Below, one piece after another: positions 14,460 through 32,794 of a DNA stretch of 33,137 bases. The translations under genes and the position numbers were made by a program. The notes below the pieces were generated by a model. It made no database searches. It worked only from the letters and a program-made list of their open reading frames with translations, and had not been told where the DNA came from. Source of the stretch: an uncultured Rhodospirillales bacterium (GTDB lineage: Bacteria > Pseudomonadota > Alphaproteobacteria > Acetobacterales > Acetobacteraceae); NCBI GenBank assembly GCA_903845065.1, contig CAIMWH010000279.1, forward strand, positions 1 through 33,137, written 5' to 3'. Each line of letters opens with the position of its first letter. Positions within the stretch are counted from its first letter, which is position 1.

Positions 14460-14480
14460 ATCCTGGTCGGGAGTTCTTCC

Positions 14481-15293: not shown

Positions 15294-15305
15294 GATCAAG
15301 GCATA

Positions 15306-15334
15306 TTGTGATATATCACGAAGCCCGATATGGT
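15306..15334 (+). promoter_or_regulatory. Sigma-70-type promoter of the second TRAP operon
   Basis: TTGTGA (15306-15311) and TATGGT (15329-15334) are spaced by 17 bases. The predicted start is near 15341, giving a leader of about 100 bases before dctP. The -35 box overlaps a perfect palindrome, the layout expected of a repressible promoter. Confidence 0.5.
15308..15319. promoter_or_regulatory. Perfect 12-bp palindrome, candidate GntR operator
   Basis: GTGATATATCAC is fully self-complementary and A/T-rich in a very GC-rich setting. It lies between the divergent GntR gene (start 15293) and dctP (start 15444) and overlaps the -35 box of the latter. Binding there would block the TRAP promoter and, being only 15 bases before the regulator start, could also control the regulator itself. 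Confidence 0.6.
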
Positions 15335-15443
15335 CCGCCCCGGGAGAAAACCAGACGTGCCGACGATCGATCGCGCCATCCCCCGGGGATAATGCCGCGC
15401 ACTGACCGGCCCACGCCATTCGGAAACGCCAGAGGAAAACACC

Positions 15444-16451: not shown

Positions 16452-16455
16452 TCGC

Positions 16456-18330: not shown

Positions 18331-18332
18331 CC

Positions 18333-18375
18333 CGCACCCCCCTTGCACCGCGCCCCGGGTTCGGGCTTGGGTGCG
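18333..18375 (+). repeat. Nested inverted repeats between dctQM and the FAD oxidoreductase gene
   Basis: An outer stem pairs CGCACCC (18333-18339) with GGGTGCG (18369-18375). An inner stem pairs CCCG (18354-18357) with CGGG (18362-18365). The structure ends six bases before the GGAGG ribosome site of the next gene. There is no U-run. It may adjust expression within the operon. Confidence 0.4.
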
Positions 18376-18391
18376 TCCACGGAGGACGATG

Positions 18392-19510
18392 ATGGAAGAC
18401 GTGGATGTGGTGGTGGCGGGTGCCGGCGTGGTCGGCATCGCGGTGGCGCGTGCCCTGGCGCAGGCCGGGCGCGACGTGCTTGTGCTCGATGCCGCCGAGG
18501 GGATCGGCACGGGCACCTCCAGCCGCAACAGCGAGGTGATCCACGCGGGCATCTATTACCCCAAGGGCAGCCTGATGGCGCGCTTCTGCGTTGAGGGCCG
18601 GCGGATGCTCTACGCCTTCTGCGCCGAGCGCGGCGTGGCGCACACCAATTGCGGCAAGCTCATCGTCGCCACCTCGCTGGCCGAGAACGAGATGCTGGCC
18701 GGCATCAAGGCGCGTGCGGAAGCCAACGGTGTGGAAGGGATGCGCCTGCTCAGCGCTGCCGAGGCGCAGGCGATGGAGCCCAACCTCGCCTGCACCGCGG
18801 CCCTGCTGTCCCCCACCACCGGAGTGGTCGACAGCCATGCCTACATGCTGGCGCTGCAAGGCGAAGCCGAACACGCCGGGGCGATGTTCGTCTTCCATAG
18901 CCCGATCAGCGGTGGACGCGTGACCGATGCCGGGATCGAGCTTGATGTGGGGGGCGCCGAGCCGATAGCGCTGCGCTGCAAGCTGTTCATCAATTCCGCA
19001 GGGCTTGCCGCACCCGCCCTCGCGCGCTCCATCACCGGCATTCCGCGCCAACTCATCCCGCAGGGATACTATGCCAAGGGCAACTACTTCACCCTCACCG
19101 GCAAATCTCCGTTCTCCCGGCTGATCTATCCCGTGCCGGTTCCGGGCGGCCTCGGCGTGCACCTCACCATTGACCTTGGCGGTCAGGCGCGGTTCGGGCC
19201 TGATGTGGAGTGGATCGAGCCAAGCGCTGACGGCAGCCTCGATTACGCCGTGAACCCTGCCCGTTGCGACAGTTTCTATGACGCGGTGCGGCGCTACTGG
19301 CCCGACCTTAGGGACGGTGCCCTGCAACCGGGCTACGCCGGCATCCGTCCGAAAATTGTTCCCAAGGGCGCGCCGGGGCAGGATTTCGTCATCCAGGGCA
19401 GCACCGTGCATGCCATCCCGTCGCTGGTGAACCTGTTCGGCATCGAGAGCCCCGGCCTCACCGCTGGCATCGCCATCGCGGCCCATGTGGCGGAGATGGT
19501 GGCGGGGTAG
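18392..19510 (+). CDS. FAD-dependent 2-hydroxyacid oxidoreductase, LhgO-like (DAO family)
   Basis: This is a flavoprotein of the D-amino-acid-oxidase/glycerol-3-phosphate-dehydrogenase superfamily, 372 residues. The FAD-binding [10 protein letters not shown] motif is at the N-terminus, followed by [20 protein letters not shown], the hallmark of L-2-hydroxyglutarate oxidase-type proteins. Later come KGNYFTL and the C-terminal GYAGIRPK and [11 protein letters not shown] segments. Relatives oxidise L-2-hydroxyglutarate or similar 2-hydroxy acids and pass electrons to oxygen or quinone. Two adjacent ATGs exist (18389 and 18392). The second is six bases from GGAGG and fits better. With the TRAP genes directly upstream, the probable task is oxidation of the imported hydroxy acid. 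Confidence 0.88.
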
Positions 19511-19569
19511 CCAACCCGGGTCGCGCGCAGCAGACTGCGGGCGACCCGTCGTCCAAGGAACGCCCCGGC

Positions 19570-20760
19570 ATGAACGCCGCGCCTGAACGCCCTGCCCCCG
19601 ATATCCGCGCCCGCGCCGTGGCACCGGCGATCGCCGCCGCCGCCGATCGCATCGAGGCCGGCTGCGAACTGCCGCCCGATCTGCTGGATGCGCTGCACGC
19701 CGCCGCTTTGTTCCGCGCCTTGCTGCCGCGTGCCCTCGGTGGCGACGAGGCGCGGCCGGCCACCTATGTGCGCATGATGGAGACCATCGCGGCGGCTGAT
19801 GCCTCCACCGCCTGGTGCATCGGGCAGAACTCGGGGTGTTCGATGGCGGCGGCCTACATGCGCCCCGACATCGCCCGCGAAATCTGGGGCGGCGATCCGC
19901 GCGCCGCCCTCGCCTGGGGCGCCGGGCCGCAGGGGCGTGCCCATGTGGTGCCCGGCGGCTATAGGGTCAGCGGAAAATGGGAGTTCGCCTCGGGCGGCCG
20001 CCACGCGACCTGGATCGGCGGCCACTCGCGCATCATCGAGTCCGACGGCAGCATGCGCCGTTGGGCCGAGGGCGCGCAGAAGGGCGAACTCATCGAACGC
20101 AGCATGCTGATGCCGAAATCGGCCGTCACCATGCATGCCAACTGGAACCCCATGGGCCTGCGCGGCACCGGCAGCGACACCTACGAGGTGACGGATCTGT
20201 TCGTGCCGGAGGAATACACTGTCATCCGCGACAATCCGCCCGATCGCCGCGAGGCGGGGGCGCTTTATTGCTTCACCACCACGCATCTCTACGCTTCCGG
20301 CTTCGGCGCGGTGGCTCTCGGTATTGCTCGTGGCGCGCTTGAGGCTTTCGCCGCCCTCGCCCAGGAAAAGACCCCGCAAGCCAGCACCCGCATGATGCGG
20401 GACAGCCACCACGTGCAAACCCAGATGGCCCTCGCCTCCGCCAAACTCGGCGCCGCGCGCGCGCTGCTGATCACGACACTCGAGGAAATATGGGACAGCG
20501 CCGCCAGCACCGGTGCGCTCACCACCGACGAGCGGATGCGCATTCGGCTGGCAGCTACCTTCGCCACCCACCAGGCGCGGGAGGTGGTGGATTTCGCCTA
20601 CCACGAGGCCGGCGCCACCGCGATTTTCCCTGGCCAGCCGTTCGAACGCCGCTTCCGCGACATCAACACCGTCACCCAGCAGGTGCAGGCGCGGGCCACC
20701 CATTTCGAAACCGTCGGCGCCCATCTGCTTGGGCTGCAACCGCCGCTGCGGTTCGTCTGA
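19570..20760 (+). CDS. Acyl-CoA dehydrogenase-fold flavoprotein (flavin monooxygenase-like)
   Basis: This 396-residue protein resembles the group D flavin monooxygenase branch of the acyl-CoA dehydrogenase fold (HsaA/DszC-like) more than true beta-oxidation enzymes. It has LLPRALGGDEA, AADASTAWCIGQNSG, a mid-domain GGYRVSGKWEFASGGRHATW, WNPMGLRGTGSDTYEV, and a C-terminal RFRDINTVTQQVQARATHFETVGAHLLG. Those GTGSDTY and DINTVTQQ blocks are typical of that branch. Relatives use reduced flavin from a separate reductase, and none is encoded nearby. It is the last gene of the TRAP operon, 59 bases after the LhgO-like gene, and its stop lies one base from the stop of the convergent MFS gene. Confidence 0.82.
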   Translation: MNAAPERPAPDIRARAVAPAIAAAADRIEAGCELPPDLLDALHAAALFRALLPRALGGDEARPATYVRMMETIAAADASTAWCIGQNSGCSMAAAYMRPDIAREIWGGDPRAALAWGAGPQGRAHVVPGGYRVSGKWEFASGGRHATWIGGHSRIIESDGSMRRWAEGAQKGELIERSMLMPKSAVTMHANWNPMGLRGTGSDTYEVTDLFVPEEYTVIRDNPPDRREAGALYCFTTTHLYASGFGAVALGIARGALEAFAALAQEKTPQASTRMMRDSHHVQTQMALASAKLGAARALLITTLEEIWDSAASTGALTTDERMRIRLAATFATHQAREVVDFAYHEAGATAIFPGQPFERRFRDINTVTQQVQARATHFETVGAHLLGLQPPLRFV

Positions 20761-20761
20761 G

Positions 20762-22279
20762 CTACCGGCGCGGCGCTCCGGCACGCCGCATCAGTGCGAG
20801 CAGCACCAGTGTCGGTATGGTCACCCAGGTCATCAGCAGGAAATCGTCATTGTAGGCCACGATCAGCGCCTGACGGTTGATCATCTGGTCCAGCGCTGCG
20901 GCGCCGTGGATGGTGCTGGGGTCCAGCGCCCGCGCCACCGCGCCGTTGCCGTGCAGGAGGCGGTTGAACGGATGCGCCACCTCGGACAGTACGCCGTGCA
21001 CCACCTGTGCGTTGCGGGTGAGCGAGAACGAGGTGATGGAGATGCCCACCGCCGCCCCGATATTGCGGAACAGGCTCAGCAGCGCCGCCCCGTCGGCCCT
21101 GAACTGGGCGGGCAGCGTGGCGTAGGCAATCACCGATAACGGGTTGAAAATCCACCCCATGCCGAAGCCTTGCAGCACCAGCGTGACCAGCAACTGCTTC
21201 TGCGAGATATCGGGCGTCCACCCGCTCATGCTGTAGAGCGTGCTTGCCAGTACCACCACGCCCACCGTCATGAACACGCGCGCGTCGACCCGGCTGCCGT
21301 ATTTCCCCGCCAGGATCATCGCCACCATGGTGCCGAGCCCGCGCGGCGCCATCGCCAGGCCGGCCGTCTGCACCGGGTAGCCGGCGAGGTTTTCGAGGTA
21401 GGGGGCCAGCAACGCGGAACTCGCCATCAGCACCATGCCGGTGGTGGCCATGATGAGCATCGCGGAGGTGAAGTTGCGGTCCTTGAAAATCTCGGGCGGA
21501 ATGAAGGACTTCTTGGCGGTGAACATGTGCACCAGGAACAGATACGTCCCGAGCCCCGCCAACACGCACTCCACGACGATTTCGCGCGATGTGAACCAGT
21601 CCTGCTCCTGGCCGCGATCCAGCATCAGTTGCAGGCTGCCGAGGGCCACGCCGAGCACGGCAAATCCGGTCCAGTCGAACCGCAGGGTATCGTTGGGCGA
21701 GGATTTCGGCAGGAACAACGCCAGTCCGGTTACCGCCAGCAGCCCGAACGGCAGGTTGACGTAGAACACCCAGCGCCAGTTGTACACATCGGTCAGCCAG
21801 CCGCCGATGGTCGGCCCCGATATCGGCCCCACCATCACGCCCAGCCCCCAGATCGCCATCGCCTGCGGGCGTTTCTCGACCGGGTAGATATCCAGCATGA
21901 TCGCCTGGCACAGCGGCACCAGGGCGGCGCCGAAGCTCCCCTGCAAAATGCGGAACAGCACCATTTGCGGCAGCGACTGCGCCGCGCCGCACATCATCGA
22001 GGTGATGGTGAAGCCGATCAGGCAAATCATGAACAACCGCTTGCGGCCGAACCGTGCCGCCATCCAACCCACCGGCGCGGTCATGATGGCGGAGGCGATC
22101 ACGTAGGAGGTCAGCACCCAGGTGATCTGGTCCAGCGTGCTGTCCAGGCTCGACTGCATGTAGGGCAGTGCCACGTTGGCGATGGTGGAGTCGAGCACCT
22201 GCATCAGCGTCGCCACCATCACGCAGCCGGTGATGAGGGCGCGATGCTTCACCGCGGGAGCGCGTGCAGGCTCCACCAT
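20762..22279 (-). CDS. DHA2 family MFS drug exporter (EmrB/QacA type)
   Basis: This 505-residue inner-membrane exporter is of the 14-helix drug:H+ antiporter-2 family. The start of helix 1 reads MQVLDSTIANVALPYMQ (motif D1 of DHA2 proteins), motif A appears as GWMAARFGRKRLF, and motif C as GPISGPTIGGWL. I chose the ATG at 22279 because AAGGAA precedes it by five bases; the upstream part of the frame is not conserved-looking. Such EmrB-like pumps usually work with an EmrA membrane-fusion partner, which is absent here. The gene is divergent from the binding-protein gene at 22423, and the shared spacer holds a sigma-54 promoter facing the other way. Confidence 0.93.
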   Translation of the reverse strand: MVEPARAPAVKHRALITGCVMVATLMQVLDSTIANVALPYMQSSLDSTLDQITWVLTSYVIASAIMTAPVGWMAARFGRKRLFMICLIGFTITSMMCGAAQSLPQMVLFRILQGSFGAALVPLCQAIMLDIYPVEKRPQAMAIWGLGVMVGPISGPTIGGWLTDVYNWRWVFYVNLPFGLLAVTGLALFLPKSSPNDTLRFDWTGFAVLGVALGSLQLMLDRGQEQDWFTSREIVVECVLAGLGTYLFLVHMFTAKKSFIPPEIFKDRNFTSAMLIMATTGMVLMASSALLAPYLENLAGYPVQTAGLAMAPRGLGTMVAMILAGKYGSRVDARVFMTVGVVVLASTLYSMSGWTPDISQKQLLVTLVLQGFGMGWIFNPLSVIAYATLPAQFRADGAALLSLFRNIGAAVGISITSFSLTRNAQVVHGVLSEVAHPFNRLLHGNGAVARALDPSTIHGAAALDQMINRQALIVAYNDDFLLMTWVTIPTLVLLALMRRAGAPRR

Positions 22280-22312
22280 GGCCGTTCCTTCATCGGTGCT
22301 GCGTGAGAGGTA

Positions 22313-22334
22313 TGGTCTTTCGCCGGGCAAACCA
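22313..22334. promoter_or_regulatory. Interrupted dyad upstream of the sigma-54 promoter
   Basis: TGGTCTTT (22313-22320) and AAACCA (22329-22334) are complementary apart from one bulged base, with an eight-base centre. The centre lies about 78 bases before the predicted sigma-54 start, where activators of such promoters or a local repressor of the divergent MFS gene could bind. It does not match the NtrC consensus. Confidence 0.25.
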
Positions 22335-22375
22335 AGTCCGATAGTGTGACCCCAGCCATTCGGCCGCCGACCCCC

Positions 22376-22391
22376 TGGCACATCGCTTGCT
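22376..22391 (+). promoter_or_regulatory. Sigma-54 (RpoN) -24/-12 promoter of the binding-protein/amidohydrolase operon
   Basis: TGGCAC (22376-22381), five bases, then TTGCT (22387-22391). The GG and GC dinucleotides are exactly ten bases apart, as required for RpoN. This matches the consensus TGGCAC-N5-TTGCW at every position. Transcription would start near 22402, just before the AAGGAG ribosome site (22409-22414) and the ATG at 22423. RpoN promoters in proteobacteria often serve nitrogen scavenging, which suits the deaminase and amidase genes around it. Confidence 0.8.
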
Positions 22392-22422
22392 AGTTTTCCT
22401 GTACCACCAAGGAGAAGCCCGC

Positions 22423-23415
22423 ATGATCGCCGCACGCTTCATTCTCGCCGCCCTGCTGCTGGCCGCCGCGCCGGCGATGGCGGAAACCAAACTCTCCTTC
22501 GGCACCGACTGGCTGGCCGAGGCCGAGCATGGCGGGTTCTACCAGGCCGTCGCGATGGGCTTCTACAAGAAGCATGGCCTCGACGTGACCATCCGCATGG
22601 GCGGCCCCGGCACCAATGCGCCGCAGATGGTGGCGGCCGGGGTGACGGACCTGCAGATGACCTCGGGCAGTTTCGGCGCGCTGAATATGGTGCAGCAGGA
22701 TGTGCCGGTGCTGGCGGTGGCCGCCTATTTCCAGAAGGACCCGCAGGTGCTGATTTCGCACCCCGGCACCGGCAATGACTCGCTGGCCGAGATGAAGGGC
22801 AAGCCGATCATGATCTCGGCCGGCGCCCGCAGCGGCTATTGGCTGTTCCTCAAGGCGAAATTTGGTTTCAGCGATACCCAGATCAAGCCGTACAACTTCT
22901 CCATGGCGCCGTTCCTGGCCGACAAATCGGCGATCCAGCAGGGTTTCATCTCCTCCGAGCCGTTCCAGATCGAGCGGCAGAGCGGCGAGAAGCCCCTGGT
23001 TCACCTGCTCGCCGACAACGGCTATGCCAACTATTCCAACCTCGTGCTGGCCACCCGCAAGATGGTGACCGAGAAGCCCGAGATCGTGCGCGCCTTCATC
23101 GAGGCCTCCACGGAGGGCTGGTACAGCTACCTCTATGGGGACCCGGCGCCGGGCAATGCGCTGATCCGGGCGGCCAACAAGGACATGACGCAGGAGACCA
23201 TCGACAACTCCATCAAGGTGATGAAGCAATACGGGATCGCCGATTCCGGTGACAGCCTCACCCTCGGCCTCGGCGCCATGAGCGAGGCGCGGTGGAAATC
23301 GTTCTATGACACCATGACCGAAGCCGGCCTCTACAAGCCCGGGCTCGACTGGCACCGCGCCTTCACGCTGGATTTCGTCAATGTGAAATACGGCATGGAG
23401 ATGAAGCCGAAATAA
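22423..23415 (+). CDS. ABC transporter substrate-binding protein, NMT1/THI5-like (SsuA/THI5 superfamily)
   Basis: This 330-residue periplasmic binding protein has a Sec signal peptide at residues 1-18 (IAARFILAALLLAAAPAMA). The diagnostic DWLAEAEHGGFYQAVAMGFYKKHGLDV segment of THI5/NMT1-type proteins, which bind pyrimidines, sulfonates or small heterocycles, comes directly after it. The later EKPEIVRAFIEASTEGW block is also typical. AAGGAG lies eight bases before the ATG. The gene follows a near-perfect sigma-54 promoter, and its stop overlaps the amidohydrolase start (TAATG). The matching ATPase and permease genes are about 4 kb further on (27626-29183), which suggests one importer split over two transcription units. 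The ligand is unknown; a nitrogen-containing ring is my inference. Confidence 0.92.
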   Translation: MIAARFILAALLLAAAPAMAETKLSFGTDWLAEAEHGGFYQAVAMGFYKKHGLDVTIRMGGPGTNAPQMVAAGVTDLQMTSGSFGALNMVQQDVPVLAVAAYFQKDPQVLISHPGTGNDSLAEMKGKPIMISAGARSGYWLFLKAKFGFSDTQIKPYNFSMAPFLADKSAIQQGFISSEPFQIERQSGEKPLVHLLADNGYANYSNLVLATRKMVTEKPEIVRAFIEASTEGWYSYLYGDPAPGNALIRAANKDMTQETIDNSIKVMKQYGIADSGDSLTLGLGAMSEARWKSFYDTMTEAGLYKPGLDWHRAFTLDFVNVKYGMEMKPK

Positions 23416-24650
23416 TGGACCGCATCCTCGCCGACGCCACGCTGCCGGACGGCAGCCGCACCGATATCGCCCTGATAGGTGGCCGCATCGCCGCCATCGG
23501 CCCGCGCTGCGGTGGGGACCTGCCGCGCCAACCCCTGGCCGGGCGCATGGTCTGGCCAGGCTTTGTCGATGTGCACACCCATCTCGACAAAGGCCATGTC
23601 TGGCCCCGCGCCGAGAACCCCGACGGCAGCTTCCAGGGCGCCCTGGCCGCTGTGGGCGCCGATCGGCGGGCGCATTGGACGGCCGACGATGTCTATCGCC
23701 GCTTCGAGTTCGGCCTGCGCTGCGCCTATGCCCACGGCACCGTCGCCATCCGCACCCATATCGACAGCCTCGATCCGCAATACCGCGTCAGTTGGCCGAT
23801 TTTCGCCGAACTGCGTGAGGCCTGGCGCGGCCGGATCGCCCTGCAAGGCGCCGCCATCGTCGGCATCGCCCTTCTTGATGATGACGCCTACGCCCAAAGC
23901 CTGGCCGCTTGCCTGCGCGAGCATGGCGGCATCATGGGCGGGGTGATCTACCCGATGGATGATCTCGCCCCCCGCATTGCCCGCCTCATCGCCCTTTGCC
24001 TGCAACACGACCTGCAACTTGATGTCCACATCGACGAAACTCTCGATCCCGGCGCTCGCTCGCTCCCCATCCTGGCCGAAACCGCGCTGCGCATGGGCTA
24101 CGCTCGGCCCATCACAGTCGGCCATTGTTGCAGCCTCTCCGTGCAGGACGACGCCGAAATCGCCCGCACGCTGGACCTCATGGTGGCGGCGCGGATGCAG
24201 GTGGTGAGCCTGCCGATGTGCAACCTCTACCTCCAGGACCGCGCCCCCGCCCGCACCCCGCGCCGCCGTGGCGTCACCCTTCTGCACGAACTCGCCGTCG
24301 CCGGTATCCCGGTGGCGCTGGCCAGCGACAACTGCCGGGACCCGTTCTACGCCTATGGCGACCACGACATGCTGGAGGTGTTCCGCGAGGCTACCCGCAT
24401 CGCCCATCTCGATCGCCCCACCGGCACCTGGCCCAACGCCGTCACCCAAACCCCCGCCGACATGATGAGCATCGCGGCCGGCCGCATCGCCGTGGGCGCC
24501 GTTGCAGACCTGGTGATCTTCAAGGCCCGCACCATCAACGAACTGCTCAGCCGCCCGCAGTCCGACCGGATGGTGCTGCGCGCCGGCGTGCCGATCGACA
24601 CCAGCCTGCCGGACTATGCCGAACTGGACGACTTGCTCGCCGGGGCCTGA
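23415..24650 (+). CDS. Cytosine deaminase-like amidohydrolase (CodA family)
   Basis: This 411-residue metal-dependent hydrolase of the amidohydrolase superfamily deaminates or opens ring amidines and amides in its relatives. The metal site is complete: His54 and His56 (VHTHLDKGH), His205 with catalytic Glu208 (HIDE), His237 (GHCC) and Asp305 (ASDNCRDPFYAYGD). The spacing follows E. coli CodA to within one or two residues. Cytosine is the reference substrate, but close relatives act on creatinine, isoguanine and other N-heterocycles, so substrate is open. Its ATG overlaps the binding-protein stop by one base, which implies that the imported compound is its substrate or precursor. The stop lies eight bases from the stop of the convergent cupin gene. 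Confidence 0.9.
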   Translation: MDRILADATLPDGSRTDIALIGGRIAAIGPRCGGDLPRQPLAGRMVWPGFVDVHTHLDKGHVWPRAENPDGSFQGALAAVGADRRAHWTADDVYRRFEFGLRCAYAHGTVAIRTHIDSLDPQYRVSWPIFAELREAWRGRIALQGAAIVGIALLDDDAYAQSLAACLREHGGIMGGVIYPMDDLAPRIARLIALCLQHDLQLDVHIDETLDPGARSLPILAETALRMGYARPITVGHCCSLSVQDDAEIARTLDLMVAARMQVVSLPMCNLYLQDRAPARTPRRRGVTLLHELAVAGIPVALASDNCRDPFYAYGDHDMLEVFREATRIAHLDRPTGTWPNAVTQTPADMMSIAAGRIAVGAVADLVIFKARTINELLSRPQSDRMVLRAGVPIDTSLPDYAELDDLLAGA

Positions 24651-24658
24651 GCGGCGGT

Positions 24659-25087
24659 TCAGCCGTGAACGCGGCCGAGAACCGCGAGATCCTCGTCATC
24701 GAGCGCGCTGCGCACGCCGGAGCGGATCAGCGCGGTGAACCCGTCATCCGGCACCATCATCGTCAGGCAATACAACCGGCCCGGCCCGGTGTTCTCCAGC
24801 GCATGCTCGGCCCCCGGCTTGAGCAGCAGCGCATCCCCGCTCGCCACCGGCACTGTCTTGCCGGCGCAGGTCGCGAGCCCCTCGCCCTTGAGGATGAAGA
24901 AGAACTCCTGCCCCACCGGATGCATGTTGGGTGGCGTCTTGCCGCCCACATCGAAAATCTCGACGCAGGCGATGAAACTCGCCCCATCGGCGTCGGGATC
25001 GAAAATCAGCGCCAGCCGGTTGCTGTCGGCCGGATTGATTTTCCAGGCCTCATAGTTCCGGGCGGTCTTGGCAATCGCGGGTTCCAT
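24659..25087 (-). CDS. Small cupin domain protein
   Basis: This 142-residue single-domain cupin has motif 1 reading NMHPVGQEFFFILKGEG (metal-type His and Glu), then AGKTVPVASGDALLLKPGAEHALENTG, which contains the second His of motif 2. The fold may bind a metal and act as a dioxygenase, isomerase or effector sensor; the sequence does not decide. AGGAGG lies six bases before the ATG at 25087 and only three before the ATG at 25090, so I chose 25087. It is 13 bases downstream of the isochorismatase-family gene on the same strand and probably co-transcribed with it. Confidence 0.85.
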   Translation of the reverse strand: MEPAIAKTARNYEAWKINPADSNRLALIFDPDADGASFIACVEIFDVGGKTPPNMHPVGQEFFFILKGEGLATCAGKTVPVASGDALLLKPGAEHALENTGPGRLYCLTMMVPDDGFTALIRSGVRSALDDEDLAVLGRVHG

Positions 25088-25100
25088 CATGCGCCTCCTG

Positions 25101-25859
25101 CTACCCCAGGCGTGACGCAATATCGCTGCCAAGTGCGGTGAAGCCGAAGCACTGGCGCACATTGTAGAGCGTTGCCTCCCAGCAGAACGAGGGCGAGGTG
25201 GTAGCGCTGCAATCCTCCAGCAGGATGGTGTCATAGCCGAGGAAATTCGCGTCCATCAGCGTCGCCAGTACGCACTGGTCGGCGTTCACGCCGGCGAACA
25301 GTATCGTGGTGATCTTGAGGTTGCGCAGGATGCTGTCGAGCGGCGTGTCCCAGAAGCCCGACATGCGGAACTTGTCCACCCGCACGTCCTCCTCCGCCGG
25401 CACCAGCGCATCGATGATGGCGGCTCCCCAGCTATCCTTTTCCAGCACGCGGGACCCGGTTTCCGGCACCACATCGCCCAGCCCGACGCCCACGCCATCC
25501 GGCTTGTAGACGTGCTCGAGCGCCGGGGAGAGGTTCAGGCGATCCGGCCGGTTGCCCCAGTTCAACCACACCACCCGCGCCCCGCCCCGCCGCAGCACCG
25601 GCAACACCGCGTTCAAAGGCGCGATGGCCCGATGGGTGGGGCTCACATCCACATCGATCAGATCGAGCCAGCCGCCCCTGCTGCAGAAGTCGTTCTGCAT
25701 GTCGATCACCACCACGGCTGTCCGCGCCAGATCGATGGTGAGGTTCTGGTCGCGCGCCTGAAAACTCACCGGCTGCGGCGGCACCGCGGCCCGCGTGAGG
25801 TCCGCATGAACCTCATCGACGAGCCATCGGTTGTACGGTCCGCTGCCGAGATGGTGCAT
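25101..25859 (-). CDS. Isochorismatase-family amidohydrolase, RutB-like
   Basis: This 252-residue cysteine hydrolase has the catalytic triad Asp53 (VVVIDMQNDF), Lys163 (VDKFRMSGFW) and Cys196 (GVNADQCVLATLMDA), with spacing almost equal to E. coli RutB. The shared blocks GGWLDL, KDSW, SGFWDTPLDSILRN and ALYN-like TLYNVRQCFGF make RutB (ureidoacrylate amidohydrolase) the closest match I recognise. N-carbamoylsarcosine amidase belongs to the same superfamily and is an alternative. Either way the likely reaction is cleavage of a carbamoyl or amide group with release of ammonia. No other rut gene is in the window. An N-terminal extension of about 30 residues precedes the core. It is divergent from the CocE-like gene across 130 bases. 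Confidence 0.88.
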   Translation of the reverse strand: MHHLGSGPYNRWLVDEVHADLTRAAVPPQPVSFQARDQNLTIDLARTAVVVIDMQNDFCSRGGWLDLIDVDVSPTHRAIAPLNAVLPVLRRGGARVVWLNWGNRPDRLNLSPALEHVYKPDGVGVGLGDVVPETGSRVLEKDSWGAAIIDALVPAEEDVRVDKFRMSGFWDTPLDSILRNLKITTILFAGVNADQCVLATLMDANFLGYDTILLEDCSATTSPSFCWEATLYNVRQCFGFTALGSDIASRLG

Positions 25860-25885
25860 GGAGGGGCTCCTGGGTTGCCGTTATT

Positions 25886-25980
25886 TTGCGCAAGCTGTTG
25901 TGTTCTGCAAAGACATTGTGCAGCACTCCCGGTGGTTGCGGAACGTCATCGGCCTCGAATAGCATGCACATCTTCGTGCA
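25886..25980. promoter_or_regulatory. Cluster of dyad elements in the divergent amidase/CocE spacer
   Basis: Three symmetric elements occur in the 130-base spacer: TTGCGCAA (25886-25893); CTGCA (25905-25909) facing TGCAG (25919-25923); and TGCAC (25965-25969) facing GTGCA (25976-25980). The last two resemble each other (TGCA, eight or nine bases, then TGCAG) and may be two binding sites of one regulator. The third also could fold as a hairpin just before the CocE ribosome site. Confidence 0.35.
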
Positions 25981-25989
25981 GGAGCCGGC

Positions 25990-27603
25990 ATGGGCGTTAC
26001 ACGTGAAACAGTCGCCATGCTGACGTCCGACGGCGTTCGCCTCGATGCCGATGTCTGGCGCCCCGCTGCCGGCGGCCCGCATCCGGTGCTGTTGATGCGG
26101 CAACCCTATGGGCGCGCCATCGCCTCTACCGTGGTCTACGCCCATCCCGCCTGGTATGCCGCGCGCGGCTACATCGTGGTGATCCAGGATGTGCGTGGCC
26201 GCGGCACCTCCGAGGGCGATTTCCGCCTCTGCGAAGCCGAGAAGCGCGACGGTGGCGAGGCCGTCACCTGGGCCGCCGCCCTGCCGGACAGCAACGGCAA
26301 GGTTGGCATGTATGGCTTCTCCTACCAGGGGATGACCCAGCTATTCGCCGCCGCCGCCCGCCCACCCGCGCTCAAGGCGATTGCCCCGGCGATGACGGCC
26401 TGGAACCTGCGCGAGGATTTCTCCCACGAAGGCGGCGCCTTCCGCCTGCAATCCGGCCTCGGCTGGGGCTGCCAGCTCGCGCTCGAAACCGCTCGCCGCA
26501 ATGGTGATGCCGCCGCCCACCAGGCCATCTACGCCGCCAGCCGTGCCGTGCCGCTCAACGCCGAGATCCCCTGCCGGCCGCCGATTTCCGCCATCCTCGG
26601 CACCCATGGCCACTATCTGGACTGGCTGACCGAACCACCGGACTCCCCCTACTGGGCCGCGGTTTCCCCCGCCGCCGCTGGCCCGATCGACATCCCGGCG
26701 CTGCATATCGGCGGCTGGTACGATCCGCTTCTGCGCGGCACCCTGGCCTGCCACCGCGCCCTTTCCGCCGGCACCGCCCTGCAACGCCTCATCATCGGCC
26801 CCTGGGTTCACATCCCCTGGAGCCGCCACGTCGGCGCGCGCGATTTCGGCCCCGAAGCGGCCAGCGACATCGACGAGCAGCAAATCGCCTGGTACGACCA
26901 CTGGCTCAAAGGCGCCCCGCTCGCCCCGGAACCGCCAGTACGGCTGTTCGAACTCAACGGCGGATGGCGTGGCTTCGAGAGCTTCCCGCCCCGCCGCGGC
27001 GCCTGGAGCCTCGCCAGCACCGGCCGCGCCGCGATGACCGAGATGGACGGCCAACTTGCCTCGGCCGCGCGCGATACCGCGCCCCCGGGCGCCGATGTGT
27101 TCGTCTACGATCCCTGGCGCCCTACCCCCTCCATTGGCGGCCACGCCGGCCATCCCGCCGGTCCGCTCGACCGCACCCACGCCGACGCCCGCAGCGATGT
27201 GCTCACCTTCACCACCGAACCCCTCGAAACCGAACTCTCGCTCGCCGGCGAGGTGGCGGCCCGGCTCGCCATCACCGCGGATGCGCCGAGTTTCGACGTC
27301 CACGCCATCCTCTCCGAACTCCCCGCCGGGGGCGGCGCCTATGAACTGACCAGCGGCCACCGGCGTCTCGACACGCCGCCCAACCGCCCCGTTATCGTGT
27401 CCCTGCGCGCCATCTGCGCCCGCATTCCCGCCGGCAGCCGTCTGCGCCTGTCCATCGCCGCCGGAGATTTCCCCGCATTTGCGGTGAATTCCGGCGCCGG
27501 CAAGCCGCCCGCCGAGGAGCGCCTGATCGACCAACACATCATCACCCTCACGTTGCGCCACGGCGCGGGCAGCGGCACCGTGTTGGTGCTGCCGTTGGCA
27601 TGA
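25990..27603 (+). CDS. CocE/NonD family hydrolase
   Basis: This 537-residue alpha/beta hydrolase of the X-Pro dipeptidyl-peptidase S15/cocaine-esterase type has an N-terminal hydrolase core and a C-terminal jelly-roll domain (from about residue 330, beta-rich, ending in HIITLTLRHGAGSG). The catalytic triad is Ser111 in YGFSYQGM, Asp245 in GGWYDPLLRG and His274 in GPWVHIPW. Relatives cleave esters, acylated amides or lactam-like bonds. The ATG at 25990 has GGAG upstream. No signal peptide is seen, so the enzyme is probably cytoplasmic. It begins a plus-strand operon with the ABC ATPase, permease, FAD oxidase and creatininase-type genes, implying a role in processing the imported substrate. Confidence 0.92.
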   Translation: MGVTRETVAMLTSDGVRLDADVWRPAAGGPHPVLLMRQPYGRAIASTVVYAHPAWYAARGYIVVIQDVRGRGTSEGDFRLCEAEKRDGGEAVTWAAALPDSNGKVGMYGFSYQGMTQLFAAAARPPALKAIAPAMTAWNLREDFSHEGGAFRLQSGLGWGCQLALETARRNGDAAAHQAIYAASRAVPLNAEIPCRPPISAILGTHGHYLDWLTEPPDSPYWAAVSPAAAGPIDIPALHIGGWYDPLLRGTLACHRALSAGTALQRLIIGPWVHIPWSRHVGARDFGPEAASDIDEQQIAWYDHWLKGAPLAPEPPVRLFELNGGWRGFESFPPRRGAWSLASTGRAAMTEMDGQLASAARDTAPPGADVFVYDPWRPTPSIGGHAGHPAGPLDRTHADARSDVLTFTTEPLETELSLAGEVAARLAITADAPSFDVHAILSELPAGGGAYELTSGHRRLDTPPNRPVIVSLRAICARIPAGSRLRLSIAAGDFPAFAVNSGAGKPPAEERLIDQHIITLTLRHGAGSGTVLVLPLA

Positions 27604-27625
27604 AGGGTGCAAGGCTCGCGCATGC

Positions 27626-28408
27626 ATGAGAGACTTCGGCATGCTTGAGCAGTCACCTCCCCTCGTCTCCCTTCGCGGCGTCGAGAAGCGCTTCTCGAAC
27701 GGCACGGTGGCCCTGCGCGGGCTGGACCTCGATTTGCGTCGTGGCGGCTTCGTCTCCCTGCTCGGCCCCTCCGGCTGCGGAAAGTCCACCGCGCTGCGCC
27801 TCATCGCTGGCCTCGGCGCCCCTTCCGCCGGGCGGGTGGACTGGGGCAGCGCCCAGCCACCGCTGAGCTTCGTGTTCCAGGAACCCACGTTGATGCCCTG
27901 GCGCAGCGTGGCCGGCAATGTGCGGCTCCCGCTGCAGATGCAGGGCATGTCCAAGGCCAACGCGATGCCGCTGGTGATGAAGGCGCTCGCCGGCGTCGGG
28001 CTTGCCGGCTTCGAGAAGCACTATCCGCGCCAGCTTTCCGGCGGCATGAAGATGCGTGTTTCCATCGCCCGTGCCCTGGTCACCCGCCCGGCGCTGCTGC
28101 TGATGGACGAACCCTTCGCCGCACTGGATGAAATCACCCGCTCCCGACTCAATGACGATATCCTCGCGCTGTGGGCGGCGCAGGGGCTTACCGTCGCCTT
28201 CGTCACCCACTCGGTATTCGAGAGCGTGTTCCTATCCGACCGCATCCTGGTGATGGCCGCCCGCCCCGGTCGCGTGGTGGCTGATATCGCTATCGACGCG
28301 CCCTACCCGCGGGACGACTCCTTCCGCAATTCCGACGCCTACGCCCATTACTGCCGCATCGTCTCGGCGGCCCTGAAGGAGGCCATGGCGGCGCATGACA
28401 CGATCTAG
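27626..28408 (+). CDS. ABC transporter ATP-binding protein (SsuB/TauB type)
   Basis: This 260-residue ATPase powers an importer of the nitrate/sulfonate/taurine/THI5 class. Walker A GPSGCGKST is at residues 47-55, the Q-loop reads VFQEPTLMPWRSV, the signature is LSGGMKMR, Walker B LLLMDEPFAALDE, and the switch His is in THSVFES. The EPTLMPW Q-loop is characteristic of this importer class. The start may be the ATG at 27626 or the one at 27641; neither has a strong ribosome site. It lies 22 bases after the CocE-like gene and overlaps the permease gene by 14 bases. It presumably serves the binding protein encoded at 22423-23415. Confidence 0.94.
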   Translation: MRDFGMLEQSPPLVSLRGVEKRFSNGTVALRGLDLDLRRGGFVSLLGPSGCGKSTALRLIAGLGAPSAGRVDWGSAQPPLSFVFQEPTLMPWRSVAGNVRLPLQMQGMSKANAMPLVMKALAGVGLAGFEKHYPRQLSGGMKMRVSIARALVTRPALLLMDEPFAALDEITRSRLNDDILALWAAQGLTVAFVTHSVFESVFLSDRILVMAARPGRVVADIAIDAPYPRDDSFRNSDAYAHYCRIVSAALKEAMAAHDTI

Positions 28409-29183
28409 GCTCCTCGCCATCCTCCTGCCGCTGGCGTTCGGCGTGTTCGTGCTGGGCGGCTGGGAGTTCCTGGTGCGGGCCGCCGGTATCCCGGTCTATG
28501 TGCTGCCAGGCCCGCTCACGATTGCCGCCAAGTTGGTGGAGGACTGGGCGTCGCTGGCGGAATCGCTGCTGGTGACCCTGCGCATCACCGGCTTGGCGCT
28601 TGCCGCGGCGGTAATCGGCGGGGGCGGGCTGGCGATTCTGTTCGCCCAGTCCAAATGGATCGAGGCGAGCCTGTTCCCGTACGCCGTCATCCTCCAGGTG
28701 ACCCCTATCGTCGCCATCGCGCCGTTGATCCTGATCTATGTGCGGGACACCGAGATGGCGCTGTTGATCTGTGCCTGGCTGGTGGCGTTCTTCCCCATCC
28801 TGTCCAACACGACGCTGGGGCTGAACTCGGTCGACCACAATTTCGTCGACCTGATGCAGCTCTACCGCGCCAAACGCTGGCAGATCCTGTGGTACCTCCG
28901 CCTGCCCGGCGCCATGCCCTACTTCCTCGGCGGCCTGCGCATCGCCGGCGGGCTCAGCCTGATCGGCGCGGTAGTTGCCGAATTCACCGCCGGGACCGCG
29001 GCCGGTGGTTCCGGGCTCGCCTATCGCATCCTCGAAAGCAGCTACCGCCTGGATATTCCGCGCATGTACGCGGCTCTGGTGCTGCTTTCGGCCACCGGTA
29101 TTCTCATCTTTGGCGTATTTGCCGCCTTGTCCTGGCTGGTGCTGCATCGCTGGCACGAAAGTGCCACGCGACGCGAACAATGA
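28395..29183 (+). CDS. ABC transporter permease (SsuC/TauC type)
   Basis: This 262-residue inner-membrane subunit has about six hydrophobic segments. Its conserved cytoplasmic coupling region reads LMQLYRAKRWQILWYLRLPGAMPYFLGGLRIAGGLSLIGAVVAEF, and the N-terminal part GGWEFLVRAAGIPVYVLPGP is typical of sulfonate/nitrate/THI5-class permeases. It would form a homodimer with two copies of the ATPase encoded just upstream, whose gene it overlaps by 14 bases. No binding-protein gene lies in this operon, which points to the one at 22423 as partner. Confidence 0.94.
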   Translation: MTRSRLLAILLPLAFGVFVLGGWEFLVRAAGIPVYVLPGPLTIAAKLVEDWASLAESLLVTLRITGLALAAAVIGGGGLAILFAQSKWIEASLFPYAVILQVTPIVAIAPLILIYVRDTEMALLICAWLVAFFPILSNTTLGLNSVDHNFVDLMQLYRAKRWQILWYLRLPGAMPYFLGGLRIAGGLSLIGAVVAEFTAGTAAGGSGLAYRILESSYRLDIPRMYAALVLLSATGILIFGVFAALSWLVLHRWHESATRREQ

Positions 29184-29193
29184 AAGCCGCCGC

Positions 29194-30540
29194 ATGACCG
29201 ACTGGACCGCCTTCGCCGCCGCCCTCGGCGACATCCCCGTCATCACCGAGCGCGCTCTGGTGCGGCAGAAAAGCCGCGATTTCTTCTGGTACTCCCCCAT
29301 CCTCAAGGAGCAGCTCAACCGCAAATCCGCCGACATCGTGGTCTGCCCGCGTGACGAGGCCGAGGTGATCGCCACCGTCGCCCTCTGCGCCCGCCATCGC
29401 GTTCCTCTCACGGTGCGTGGCGGCGGCACCGGCAACTACGGCCAGGCGGTGCCGCTGAACGGCGGCGTGGTGATGGACATGATGGCGCTCGACCGCATCA
29501 TCGCGCTGGAGGATGGCGCGCTGACCGTGGAAGCCGGCCGCAAACTCATCGATATCGACACCGCGACGCGCCCGATGGGGTGGGAACTGCGGATGCACCC
29601 CTCCACCAAGCGTACCGCCACCATCGGCGGCTTCATTGGTGGCGGCAGCGGGGGCGTCGGCTCTATCACCTATGGCGGCCTGCGCGAGCGGGGCAATGTG
29701 CTTTCCGCTCGGGTGATTTCCTGCGAGGAAACGCCCCGCATCGTCACCCTGCGCGGGGACGAGGTGGCGGCGGTGAACCACGCCTATGGTACAACCGGCA
29801 TCATCACCCAACTCACCATCGGCATGGCGCCGGTGCAGCCGTTCATCGATATCCTTATCACGTTTGACGACTTCATGGATGCTGCCCGATGCGGCCTTAC
29901 TCTCGCCACTGCGGAGGGCATAGTCAAAAAACTCGTTACGGTCGTTGCCGATCCAGTGCCCCAAAGTTTCCGCGGCCTGAATGTCCCTCGAGGTAAAAGC
30001 GTCGTCCTCGCCATGATCGCACGCCAATCGCTGACCGCATTTGGCGACGTGATCCGGATCGCCGGAGGCACTGAAATTATGGCGCAGGACGCCGTTTGGG
30101 CCGAAACCACGCCGGACGCGACGCCGCTCTACGAATACACCTGGAACCACACCACCCTGCACATGCTGCGCGGCGACAAGGGCGTGACCTATCTGCAATG
30201 CCTCTTCCCGCCCGATCGCGGCCTCGATCTCGTCGCCAAGATCAATGCGGACCTTGAGGGGGAACTCATGCAGCACCTCGAATTCCAGCGCAGTGGCGGC
30301 CGCGTGGTCTACAGCGCGCTGCCGGTGATCCGCTACACCACGCCCGAGCGCCTCACCGCCATCGTCGCCCACCACGAGGACAACGGCATCCTTATCGCCA
30401 ACCCGCATTTCTACACGTTGGAGGATGGCGCCGGTCACAAGCGCGTCGGCGCCGACCAGCCGGCCATGAAGGCCCGGATGGACCCGCATGCGTTGCTCAA
30501 TCCGGGCAAGATGCGCACGTACCAAGCCAAGGAGGCCTGA
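29194..30540 (+). CDS. FAD-linked oxidase (VAO/PCMH flavoprotein family)
   Basis: This 448-residue oxidase or dehydrogenase is of the vanillyl-alcohol-oxidase family. The N-terminal FAD domain shows VVCPRDEAEVIATVALCARH, the pyrophosphate loop RGGGTGNYGQAVPLNGG, and STKRTATIGGFIGGGSGG. The C-terminal substrate domain ends with the family-typical DPHALLNPGKM. The substrate is unknown. I chose the ATG at 29194, ten bases after the permease stop; an upstream frame overlaps the permease. Residues about 230-305 (29881-30110) use many A/T-ending and rare codons (CGA, ATA, AAA, ACT, CCT) unlike the rest of the gene, yet the frame is intact. It is followed two bases later by the creatininase-type gene. 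Confidence 0.9.
   Translation: MTDWTAFAAALGDIPVITERALVRQKSRDFFWYSPILKEQLNRKSADIVVCPRDEAEVIATVALCARHRVPLTVRGGGTGNYGQAVPLNGGVVMDMMALDRIIALEDGALTVEAGRKLIDIDTATRPMGWELRMHPSTKRTATIGGFIGGGSGGVGSITYGGLRERGNVLSARVISCEETPRIVTLRGDEVAAVNHAYGTTGIITQLTIGMAPVQPFIDILITFDDFMDAARCGLTLATAEGIVKKLVTVVADPVPQSFRGLNVPRGKSVVLAMIARQSLTAFGDVIRIAGGTEIMAQDAVWAETTPDATPLYEYTWNHTTLHMLRGDKGVTYLQCLFPPDRGLDLVAKINADLEGELMQHLEFQRSGGRVVYSALPVIRYTTPERLTAIVAHHEDNGILIANPHFYTLEDGAGHKRVGADQPAMKARMDPHALLNPGKMRTYQAKEA
30529..30535 (+). promoter_or_regulatory. Strong ribosome binding site for the GTG-started creatininase-type gene
   Basis: AAGGAGG lies inside the last codons of the FAD-oxidase gene, seven bases before GTG at 30543. It supports the GTG start and suggests coupled translation, since the upstream stop (30538-30540) falls between the site and the start. 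Confidence 0.7.
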
Positions 30541-30542
30541 CG

Positions 30543-31340
30543 GTGGCCCGTTGTTGGCGTGATCTGCCGTGGACCGCGTTCCAGGGGCTCGATCCTGAAG
30601 CCACCGTCGCCATCCTCCCCGTGGGGGCGATCGAGCAGCATGGGCCGCATTTGCCGGTGGGCGTTGACGCGTTCATCAACGAGGGCGCCGTCACCGCCGC
30701 GATGCCGCTGATGCCGGACAGCGTGCTGGTGCTTCCCATCGCGCAGGTTGGCAAATCCAACGAACATGTGGCTTTCCCCGGTACCCTGACCCATTCGGCC
30801 GAAACCCTCACCCGCATCTGGACCGAACTCGGCGAGGCCGTCGCGCGCGCCGGTATCCGCAAGTTCGTCATGTTGAACTCGCACGGTGGGCAGCCCCAGA
30901 TCATGGACATCGTGGCGCGGGACCTGCGGGTGCGGCTGGGGATGTTCGCCGTCGCCGCGAACCTGTCCGGACTGAGCACCGCGCGCGGCTTGTTCACCGA
31001 CCTCGAATCCCGCCATGGCATCCACGGTGGCTCATCGGAAACCTCGCAGATGCTGGCGCTGCGGCCGGACCTCGTGCGCATGGAACACGCCGCCAACTTC
31101 GCCCCCAGCACCATCGGGCTGGAGGCCGAGTTTACCTATTTGCGCGCCGAGGGGCACGCGGTTGGCTTCGGTTGGCAAACCCAGGATCTTCATCCCGCCG
31201 GTGCCTGCGGCGATGCCACCGACGCCGATGCGGCACGCGGCGCCACCATCATTGCCTCCAAGGCGCGAGGCATCGCCAACCTCATCGCCGAGGTGGCCCG
31301 CTTTCCGCTTTCCCGCCTGGTGGCCGGCCCGCTCGGATAA
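30543..31340 (+). CDS. Creatininase family amidohydrolase
   Basis: This 265-residue metal-dependent hydrolase is of the creatininase family, whose members open cyclic amides (creatinine to creatine) or remove formyl groups. The family metal ligands are all visible: Glu31, His33 and Asp42 in VGAIEQHGPHLPVGVDAF, His114 in NSHGGQ, and Glu166 in HGGSSETS. The GTG start has an excellent AAGGAGG site. It is the last gene of the CocE/ABC/oxidase operon. Its true substrate need not be creatinine: no creatinase or sarcosine oxidase is nearby, and the family is broad. Its stop is two bases from the stop of the convergent MFS gene. Confidence 0.92.
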   Translation: MARCWRDLPWTAFQGLDPEATVAILPVGAIEQHGPHLPVGVDAFINEGAVTAAMPLMPDSVLVLPIAQVGKSNEHVAFPGTLTHSAETLTRIWTELGEAVARAGIRKFVMLNSHGGQPQIMDIVARDLRVRLGMFAVAANLSGLSTARGLFTDLESRHGIHGGSSETSQMLALRPDLVRMEHAANFAPSTIGLEAEFTYLRAEGHAVGFGWQTQDLHPAGACGDATDADAARGATIIASKARGIANLIAEVARFPLSRLVAGPLG

Positions 31341-31342: not shown

Positions 31343-32794
31343 CTACGTCCCGCGATGCCCGCTCAACTCGGTGGCCGCGGCCGGCGGCATGCGCATCGCC
31401 AGCGGGCAGGCGCAGATGGAGACGCAGGACACCACGATGAACGCGATAGAGAAATCGCTCATCATCGGCTCGGTATGCCCGGCCAGCATCATCGTCACGG
31501 TGAGGGATGCGGCGGCGGCCGAAACCCCCAGTGTCTGGGATATCTGCTGCATCGCCGCGTAGAAGCCGGTGGCCGCGCTCATCCGCTCGCGTGGCACATC
31601 GGCGTAGGCCAGGGCGTTGTAGGCTGTGAATTGGAGCGAACGGAAAAACCCGCCTGAAATCAGTACCGCGTAGATCAGGAAAATCGGCCAGCCTGGCCGG
31701 AAAAACGCGATCAGCGCGAGCAGGAAGGACGACAGCACCGCATTCCACACCAACGTGTCGCGGAACCCCAGCCGTCGCAGCGCTGCCGTGGCCGCCGGCT
31801 TCATGAACAACGCACCGAGTGAACTGGCGAAGGTGATCATGCCGCTCTGCGCCGGCGAGCGCCCGAAGGTGAGCTGGAGCATCATTGGCAGCAGGAATGG
31901 GATGGCCCCGATCCCCACCCGGAAAAACGTCCCCGCGATCACCGCCACGGCAAACGTGGGAATGCGGAGCAGTGACAAATCAATGATCGGGCGCGGCACC
32001 AGCCGCGTGTGCAGCACATACAACGCCCCGCCCACCAGCCCCACCGCGAGGAACGCAAGGCTCATCTCGCGCGGCACCACCCCGCGCCCAATGGTCTCCA
32101 GCCCGAACATCATCGACGCCAGCGCGACGCCGGAGATGGCAAACCCCCGCCAGTCGAACTTCGCGCCGGTCGACTCCCGCACATCGCTCACAAACAGGGT
32201 CACCAGCACGATGCCGAGCAGGCCAAAGGGGATGTTGATGTAGAAAATCAGCCGCCACGAGAAATAAGTGACGATGAAGCCGCCGAGCGGCGGCCCCAGC
32301 ACCGGGCCGAGCAGGGCCGGGGTGGATAGCCAGGCCATTGCCGCCACCAACTCGCTTTTCGGCACCGTGCGCAGCAGCACCAGCCGCCCCACCGGCACCA
32401 TCATGGCGCCGCCGAAGCCCTGCAAAACCCGCGAAATCACCAGGAACGGCAGTGAGTCGGCCGCGCCGCACAGCATGGAGCCCAGGGTGAACACCAGGAT
32501 CGCCGCACGAAATATGGTCCGCGTGCCGAAGCGGTCCGCCAGCCATCCGCTGCACGGGATAAACACCGCCAGGCTCAGCATGTAGGACGTCAGCGCCACG
32601 TTCATGTGCGTGGGTTCTTCGCCGAACGCCCGCGCCATCGTCGGCAGCGCCGTGGAAATCACGGTGCTGTCGAGGTTCTGCATGAACAGCGCACAGGCGA
32701 CGATCAGCGCCGTCAACCGCGTCCGCGGCGCCACCGACATGGGCGAAGCGGTCCGGCCGGGCGGGATGGTGGGTTCCTTCATCGAACACAGCAT
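31343..32794 (-). CDS. DHA2 family MFS drug exporter (EmrB/QacA type)
   Basis: This is the second 14-helix drug exporter type protein in the window, up to 483 residues. Helix 1 reads FMQNLDSTVISTALPTMAR, motif A GWLADRFGTRTIF, and motif C GPVLGPPLGGFI. The start is uncertain: ATGs at 32794, 32782 and 32740 are all in frame and none has a clear ribosome site; 32740 (MSVAPRTRL) would give a more usual short N-terminus. It lies 33 bases downstream of the quinone-oxidoreductase gene on the same strand. It may protect against, or export, an intermediate of the neighbouring catabolic genes, but that is inference from position. Confidence 0.92.
   Translation of the reverse strand: MLCSMKEPTIPPGRTASPMSVAPRTRLTALIVACALFMQNLDSTVISTALPTMARAFGEEPTHMNVALTSYMLSLAVFIPCSGWLADRFGTRTIFRAAILVFTLGSMLCGAADSLPFLVISRVLQGFGGAMMVPVGRLVLLRTVPKSELVAAMAWLSTPALLGPVLGPPLGGFIVTYFSWRLIFYINIPFGLLGIVLVTLFVSDVRESTGAKFDWRGFAISGVALASMMFGLETIGRGVVPREMSLAFLAVGLVGGALYVLHTRLVPRPIIDLSLLRIPTFAVAVIAGTFFRVGIGAIPFLLPMMLQLTFGRSPAQSGMITFASSLGALFMKPAATAALRRLGFRDTLVWNAVLSSFLLALIAFFRPGWPIFLIYAVLISGGFFRSLQFTAYNALAYADVPRERMSAATGFYAAMQQISQTLGVSAAAASLTVTMMLAGHTEPMMSDFSIAFIVVSCVSICACPLAMRMPPAAATELSGHRGT

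Follow-up and report, generated by a model that had tools for sequence, protein, structure and literature searches.

Relation to described systems

Most organisms synthesise folates and pterins, yet the genes behind microbial mineralisation of the pterin ring are, to our knowledge, poorly characterised. The closest described systems are the Escherichia coli Rut pathway, the cytosine deaminase CodA, the ThiXYZ-type importers, the isoxanthopterin and pterin deaminases and the flavin oxygenase of PDB entries 6v42 and 6v43. Each of them resembles part of a cluster of nine genes at positions 22423–31340 of a DNA stretch of 33,137 nucleotides from an uncultured Rhodospirillales bacterium (contig CAIMWH010000279.1). 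This stretch, referred to as the window, is one whole contig (C279) of a genome of 5.9 Mb in 380 contigs. The cluster encodes an ATP-binding cassette (ABC) importer of the THI5 type, a CodA-like enzyme, a flavin adenine dinucleotide (FAD) enzyme and several hydrolases, and its most likely role, in our reading, is to break down a pterin-type heterocycle, either folate-derived or a free pteridine, as a source of nitrogen.

The flavin oxygenase of 6v42/6v43 shares full-length homology and fold with the FAD enzyme of the window, and its close relatives are located in clusters of CodA, creatininase and THI5-type ABC genes; the window protein, however, is 46.7% identical and falls into a separate clade. 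Isoxanthopterin/pterin deaminases (PRK12393, Arad3529 with its Variovorax F1 orthologue, and presumably 2PAJ) act on pterin-type rings, and PRK12393 proteins are found in the clusters of five relatives. In the window's genome, in contrast, none exceeds the cut-off, and the CodA-like enzyme of the window represents another family. E. coli CodA shares the catalytic residues of this enzyme, whereas neither the window protein nor any of 76 relatives retains its cytosine-pocket residues. Similarly, ThiXYZ-type importers for formylaminopyrimidine or thiamin agree with the substrate-binding protein (SBP) of the cluster in fold and Pfam family, but identity is only 19% and a thiamin salvage enzyme was not recognised in the gene set of the window.

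The Rut pathway follows a similar logic, combining flavin oxygenation with an isochorismatase-fold amidohydrolase, and relatives of the cluster include a RidA-family protein. It differs in that the RutB equivalog score is not reached and that the importer here is an ABC system. Moreover, RutA relatives (E. coli query, E 1e-20) occur in 0 of 147 cluster loci and in 1 of 20 control stretches, and none is present among the Pfam matches of the window's cluster, on which grounds the Rut pathway was rejected. For folate itself, the one gene-level study of bacterial degradation that was found describes cleavage and deamination in Variovorax, and its excerpted text leaves the fate of the deaminated products and the later steps open (PMC9513972).

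The gene cluster of the window

The nine genes, which the original prediction had named from the letters alone, are all situated in open frames and match Pfam families, and all 17 catalytic residues listed with them are in place. The features are as follows.

22376–22391, plus strand: sigma-54 (-24/-12) promoter TGGCACATCGCTTGCT, consensus with 0 mismatches
22423–23415, plus strand: THI5/NMT1-type periplasmic SBP of the ABC importer (PF09084, 103.6 bits)
23415–24650, plus strand: CodA-like metal-dependent deaminase, with a predicted amino-heterocycle substrate that is not cytosine (NF005759, 589.8 bits)
24659–25087, minus strand: small cupin protein (PF07883, Cupin_2, 55.1 bits)
25101–25859, minus strand: RutB/biuret-hydrolase-like cysteine hydrolase of the isochorismatase fold (PF00857, 122.6 bits)
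25990–27603, plus strand: CocE/NonD-type serine hydrolase (TIGR00976, 401.6 bits, cut-off 66.3)
27626–28408, plus strand: ABC importer ATPase (PF00005, 97.5 bits)
28395–29183, plus strand: ABC importer permease (PF00528, 85.9 bits)
29194–30540, plus strand: FAD enzyme, paralogue of 6v42 (FAD_binding_4, 100.7 bits; 6v42, 399.2 bits)
30543–31340, plus strand: creatininase-family metal hydrolase with a GTG start, which may open a cyclic amide (PF02633, 229.6 bits)

The cupin and the cysteine hydrolase are encoded on the minus strand within an otherwise plus-strand set. Additional Pfam matches were obtained for the CodA-like enzyme (Amidohydro_3, 119.3 bits) and the CocE-type hydrolase (Peptidase_S15, 226 bits; PepX_C, 87 bits). 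The SBP gene starts at ATG 22423, and the TTG start of a longer open reading frame (ORF) overlaps the promoter; the FAD gene starts at ATG 29194. In the protein analyses, SBP was taken from 22426 (without the methionine) and the FAD protein from 29179.

The FAD enzyme and a possible folate link

By sequence, the best PDB relative of the FAD enzyme is 6v42, which aligns over the full length (E 2e-118). The same entry is the best fold match of the predicted structure (TM-score 0.91, E 4.4e-53; predicted local distance difference test, pLDDT, 86.1). Its title describes a flavin oxygenase with the cofactor bound, 'involved in folate catabolism', and this role is taken from the title alone. Among the eight loci of the collection nearest to 6v42 (73.7–75.5% identity), genes for CodA, creatininase, SBP, RidA and a flavodoxin-like NAD(P)H oxidoreductase (NQO) adjoin in seven, and the eighth, L181, has CodA too.

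A quick tree of the FAD family was calculated from 119 of 158 rows, near-identical rows and ORFs shorter than 380 residues being dropped. In four loci (L066, L072, L074 and L188) the clade of 6v42 and that of the window are represented within one cluster, which suggests two flavin-dependent steps. On this basis, the FAD enzyme of the window is read as a sister of 6v42 rather than its counterpart, and the two probably belong to pathways of one kind.

The CodA-like enzyme

The CodA-like protein is 27% identical to E. coli CodA. It exceeds the cut-off of NF005759 (PRK07583), a family named cytosine deaminase (589.8 versus 403 bits), and stays far below that of the E. coli-type cytosine deaminase model NF006685 (104.7 versus 483 bits). 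The catalytic set H54/H56/H205/E208/H237/D305 is present in the window, and the corresponding E. coli residues H61, H63, H214, E217, H246 and D313 are kept in all 76 relatives compared, which are those with more than 40% identity to the window among 84. F154, Q156, D314 and W319 of E. coli CodA, which we take to line the cytosine pocket, are replaced by I, G, N and F in the window. These four residues are kept in 0 of the 76 relatives, with D314 changed to N and W319 to F throughout. Since the catalytic residues are kept and the cytosine pocket is lost, the name cytosine deaminase attached to NCBIfam NF005759 is probably wrong for these proteins.

Importer and promoter

The SBP exceeds the cut-off of PF09084 (20.5 bits) by a wide margin. 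Its predicted structure (pLDDT 91.7) best matches the formylaminopyrimidine binder 3ix1, the thiamin-bound 4nmy and Thi5, with identities of 14–19%.

The sigma-54 consensus TGGCACATCGCTTGCT ends 31 bases ahead of the SBP start codon. A lone site of this kind is little proof, since shuffled sequence yields 1.27 matches per window with one mismatch allowed, at least one being found in 72 of 100 shuffles. The promoter call therefore rests on the position before the importer gene and on recurrence in relatives. Of 82 relatives, which are not mutually independent, 23 carry the motif TGGCAYN5TTGCW in the 300 bases preceding SBP; there is no antisense site, and first-order Markov shuffles give 0.02 on average. 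Ahead of the other genes it is rare or missing (CodA 0/82, FAD 0/160, ATPase 0/96, cysH 0/19, CocE 0/21, creatininase 1/78), and antisense sites number two for FAD, two for creatininase and one for CocE. Counted over whole loci, the density is 1.5 sites per 100 kb for the clusters (40 sites, 143 loci) and 0.25 per 100 kb for the controls (one site, 20 stretches). The sigma-54 promoter claimed from the window alone is thus borne out by a perfect and conserved site. A conserved -24/-12 consensus before the first gene marks the cluster as a putative regulated operon, and nitrogen may be the signal that controls it.

Conservation of the gene set

Of 150 genomes surveyed in the order, 74 (the window's own among them) yield a CodA-like match at E 0.001, many of these matches being short or distant. 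Two samples of loci were compared. For the first, stretches of 20 kb were taken around CodA relatives, namely 20 of the 26 with the highest scores, a choice by score that is not random. All nine genes are present in six of the 20 loci (L037, L045, L046, L048, L049 and L050) and eight genes in three more (L038, L039 and L047), with varying gene order. For the second sample, a FAD alignment was searched against 398 genomes spread evenly over the phylum. Thirty-two genomes, including that of the window, were positive, and the 31 others contributed 35 FAD genes; ten of these 35 loci come from eight genomes of one genus and are therefore non-independent.

Around these FAD genes (tblastn, E 1e-10, half of the query covered), CodA was detected in 31 loci, creatininase and SBP in 30 each, ATPase in 30, permease in 29, RidA in 28 and NQO in 26. 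Rarer neighbours are cysH (3), a 2-oxoglutarate–Fe (2OG-Fe) oxygenase (3), a PRK12393-type amidohydrolase (2), a Rieske oxygenase (2), cupin (2) and CocE (1). The 20 control stretches, drawn from these same genomes, lack FAD, CodA, creatininase, SBP, permease, RidA, NQO, cupin, CocE and Rieske genes altogether; ATPase was found in six and cysH, 2OG-Fe and PRK12393-type genes in one each. Non-conservation of the gene set in related genomes had been named at the outset as the finding that would speak against a pathway, and these counts show the opposite. They imply a common core of importer, CodA, FAD and creatininase, often with RidA and NQO, plus a rarer module of cysH, the cysteine hydrolase, with cupin and CocE. 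The window carries both. In relatives the cupin gene adjoins cysH or CocE. The FAD family as a whole comprises at least 597 stretches across 84,980 species genomes, and among the best 80 loci 40 are cyanobacterial, judged by record title.

An Enterobacterales form with importer, CodA-like, creatininase, RidA, FAD and PRK12393-type genes is found in Klebsiella pneumoniae (L057, CP125156.1) and on a plasmid of Rahnella victoriana (L061). The Klebsiella record, of 5.4 Mb, is titled a plasmid, yet is chromosome-sized. Gluconobacter cerinus (L140) and Roseococcus thiosulfatophilus (L127) likewise have forms of the cluster. In Rhizobium johnstonii 3841 (L227, pRL12, 1–11374), the core cluster adjoins paoABC molybdenum hydroxylase genes, a non-recurring neighbour whose product could oxidise an aldehyde or a ring carbon. 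This cluster corresponds to about pRL120302–310, counted back from a sigma factor taken as rpoI (pRL120319). The literature on pRL12 tags around the locus, as far as its excerpted text extends, gives no phenotype for the cluster genes; the nearest tag is pRL120291, about eleven genes off (PMC11103875), and the other is rpoI itself (PMC1557990).

Hydrolases and cupin

In the creatininase-family enzyme, E31/H33/D42/H114/E166 are in place and the superfamily model PF02633 is matched, but the creatininase equivalog TIGR04448 is not reached (77.6 versus 235 bits), nor is the cut-off of the MftE equivalog. The triad D53/K163/C196 of the cysteine hydrolase aligns with that of E. coli RutB and places the enzyme among the isochorismatase-fold cysteine amidases. 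It scores 145.4 bits with the RutB equivalog TIGR03614, for which 377.95 are needed, and 126.4 bits with the biuret hydrolase BiuH (NF050097; cut-off 370). S111/D245/H274 of the CocE-type enzyme are likewise in place, within the broad CocE/NonD subfamily TIGR00976.

Degradation of biuret or cyanurate, suggested by neighbours in R. etli and R. mucosa, was rejected as a candidate: neither the cysteine hydrolase of the window nor that of L116 reaches the BiuH cut-off, two further R. etli isochorismatase genes being left out, and that of AtzE is not reached by the amidases of L051, L053 and L199. A CocE gene on Azospirillum plasmids was also dismissed as a cluster member, having no other cluster gene beside it in two annotated plasmids.

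Companion genes in related clusters

Ten amidohydrolase neighbours belonging to one ORF family, L178 and L185 included, were scanned, an eleventh in L140 being left out. Five exceed the cut-off of PRK12393, which we take to be a family including isoxanthopterin deaminase: those of L047, L057, L061, L069 and L185. The match in L057 spans residues 2–352 of 451, and the gene table of that record lists no such gene. The best PDB match of the L069 protein is 2paj (436.6 bits), a structure reportedly stemming from the isoxanthopterin deaminase study of Hall et al. in 2010. That study is cited in a passage of PMC11121863.

HpxZ, a protein of oxalurate catabolism, is encoded in 3 of the 147 loci (L053, L065 and L199), L053 being the source of the query; the gene table of L053 contains neither a FAD nor a CodA gene. 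Counted in the same way, with the query's own locus included, an allophanate hydrolase of L051 recurs in three loci, paoA in two and paoB in one; the numbers in the 20 controls are 0 for HpxZ, 1 for the allophanate hydrolase, 1 for paoA and 0 for paoB. Owing to this rare recurrence, none of the four belongs to the core. Cobalamin and dimethylglycine-type neighbours were discarded as pathway genes, as they are confined to one genus and look like synteny.

Two of these loci show further features. L053, on a plasmid of Roseomonas mucosa HV2 (10144–20263), is a variant in which the CocE, creatininase, cupin and cysteine hydrolase genes are accompanied by another kind of ABC importer, HpxZ and an amidase, and transposase genes are situated on both sides. 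Near the L199 cluster lies a gene for gamma-glutamyltranspeptidase.

Proposed pathway and alternative readings

The FAD relative, the amidohydrolase neighbours, HpxZ and the fold of SBP together favour a fused aminopyrimidine such as a pterin, with a purine or the thiamin pyrimidine as less likely candidates. The pathway that we infer, with its substrate, its nitrogen regulation, its order of steps and every reaction, would run as follows. Under nitrogen limitation, the sigma-54 promoter would start transcription at SBP, and the THI5-type ABC importer would take up a pterin-like compound, recognised by its amino-pyrimidine face. The CodA-like metallohydrolase could then strip an amino group from the ring and release ammonia, the FAD enzyme could oxygenate the ring or an attached carbon, and the creatininase-family enzyme could hydrolyse the resulting cyclic amide. 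A released ureido or carbamoyl group would be converted to ammonia and CO2 by the RutB-like cysteine hydrolase, leaving the last steps to the cupin and the CocE-type serine hydrolase. If the creatininase-type enzyme acts on a 6,7-dioxo ring, its opening would leave an oxalyl unit derived from the pyrazine moiety, which would account for the HpxZ genes of certain clusters.

Several observations weigh against a pterin-type substrate. The FAD enzymes of the window and of 6v42 occupy separate well-supported clades, which does not support orthology, and the window enzyme may act on another compound. NQO and RidA are not among the nine genes of the window, although they are so frequent in the phylum sample. 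No PRK12393 protein exceeds the cut-off of 543 bits in the window's genome (best 133.8 bits), so that the CodA-like enzyme would have to perform the deamination there. Among the ten amidohydrolase neighbours, two (L135 and L178) pass the cut-off of 8-oxoguanine deaminase, a purine enzyme, and three (a second one in L047, and those of L055 and L116) pass neither cut-off. The identity of 2PAJ as isoxanthopterin deaminase is our assumption. A folate-cleaving carboxypeptidase, for which no systematic search was made, is annotated in none of the annotated neighbourhoods examined. Finally, 24 of 30 cyanobacterial tree rows are without another tagged cluster gene within 9 kb, some of the contigs being short.

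An alternative is that the cluster employs these enzyme families to scavenge nitrogen from another N-heterocycle, fused or single, such as an oxidised purine, an aminopyrimidine like the thiamin pyrimidine or an alkaloid, and that the folate link of 6v42 holds for its own clade only. The two 8-oxoguanine-deaminase-type proteins and the split between the FAD clades agree with this, as do the 50 listed matches of SBP, which include binders of thiamin and of formylaminopyrimidine but none of pterin, and the extra oxygenases (Rieske, 2OG-Fe) that vary among clusters. We regard it as less likely, since the FAD enzyme has a single close relative of known structure, whose title names folate catabolism, and both FAD clades are found together in four clusters. 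A much smaller probability is attributed to two or more unrelated operons lying side by side, one comprising the importer, the FAD enzyme and the deaminase, and another made up of the hydrolases. The reshuffled gene order among genomes, the use of both strands in the window and the near absence of cysH, cupin and CocE from the phylum sample would fit such a patchwork. Nevertheless, six of the 20 loci from the order keep all nine genes within 20 kb even though gene order varies. In the Oscillatoriaceae cyanobacterium L116, FAD, creatininase, cysH, cupin and CocE form one uninterrupted run, and L199, from another class, holds eight of the nine genes, combining the rarer module with the importer and lacking CodA.

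Utilisation of creatinine, hydantoin or cytosine, in which CodA would deaminate, creatininase open the ring and the RutB-like enzyme remove the carbamoyl group, is the least probable of these readings. It draws on the family names, the intact catalytic residues and the high PRK07583 score, yet the creatininase, RutB and biuret hydrolase equivalogs are all missed, the presumed cytosine-pocket residues are replaced throughout, and RutA relatives are absent from the cluster loci. Among the compounds originally suggested for growth tests, creatinine fails on the creatininase equivalog and cytosine on the lost pocket, so that use of either by this cluster is unlikely on present sequence evidence. 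The general proposal of nitrogen scavenging by ring opening fares better, as fold and neighbour evidence point to an N-heterocycle.

Returning to the pterin-type substrate, a wider proposal is put forward more tentatively, as a possibility in which we place slightly less than balanced confidence: the pteridine ring of folate or of free pterins would be dismantled for nitrogen by a pathway absent from the literature searched. It would be built from interchangeable modules, namely the THI5 importer, two sister flavin oxygenases, a CodA-like or isoxanthopterin-type deaminase, a creatininase-family ring opener and RutB-like plus oxalurate-type hydrolases. It would be sigma-54-driven in many Pseudomonadota and exist as a partial set in cyanobacteria. 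The gene set is described in none of the papers listed by the literature searches, which is weak evidence since coverage of subscription journals is thin. To that extent the pathway may still be called undescribed, but the term is weakened by PDB 6v42, an entry that assigns a relative of the FAD enzyme to folate catabolism. If the proposal is true, it would supply named genes for the missing later half of bacterial folate and pterin degradation, revise database names, for instance that of cytosine deaminase given to PRK07583 proteins, and reveal a pterin-ring system under nitrogen-type regulation in soil, plant-associated and acetic-acid-related bacteria.

Genomic surroundings

Outside the cluster, genes were named from their translations. 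The cluster is flanked by what are presumably EmrB-type major facilitator transporters (20762–22435 and 31343–32794, both minus strand). Further upstream are two sets that we take to be TRAP transporters (9813–12727, minus strand; 15444–18330, plus strand), along with a presumed enolase-superfamily-like gene (8499–9746), GntR-type regulators and oxidoreductases. The contig opens (2–4555) with apparent cytochrome c oxidase genes, encoding a partial subunit I, heme O synthase, CtaG, subunit III and a SURF1-like protein.

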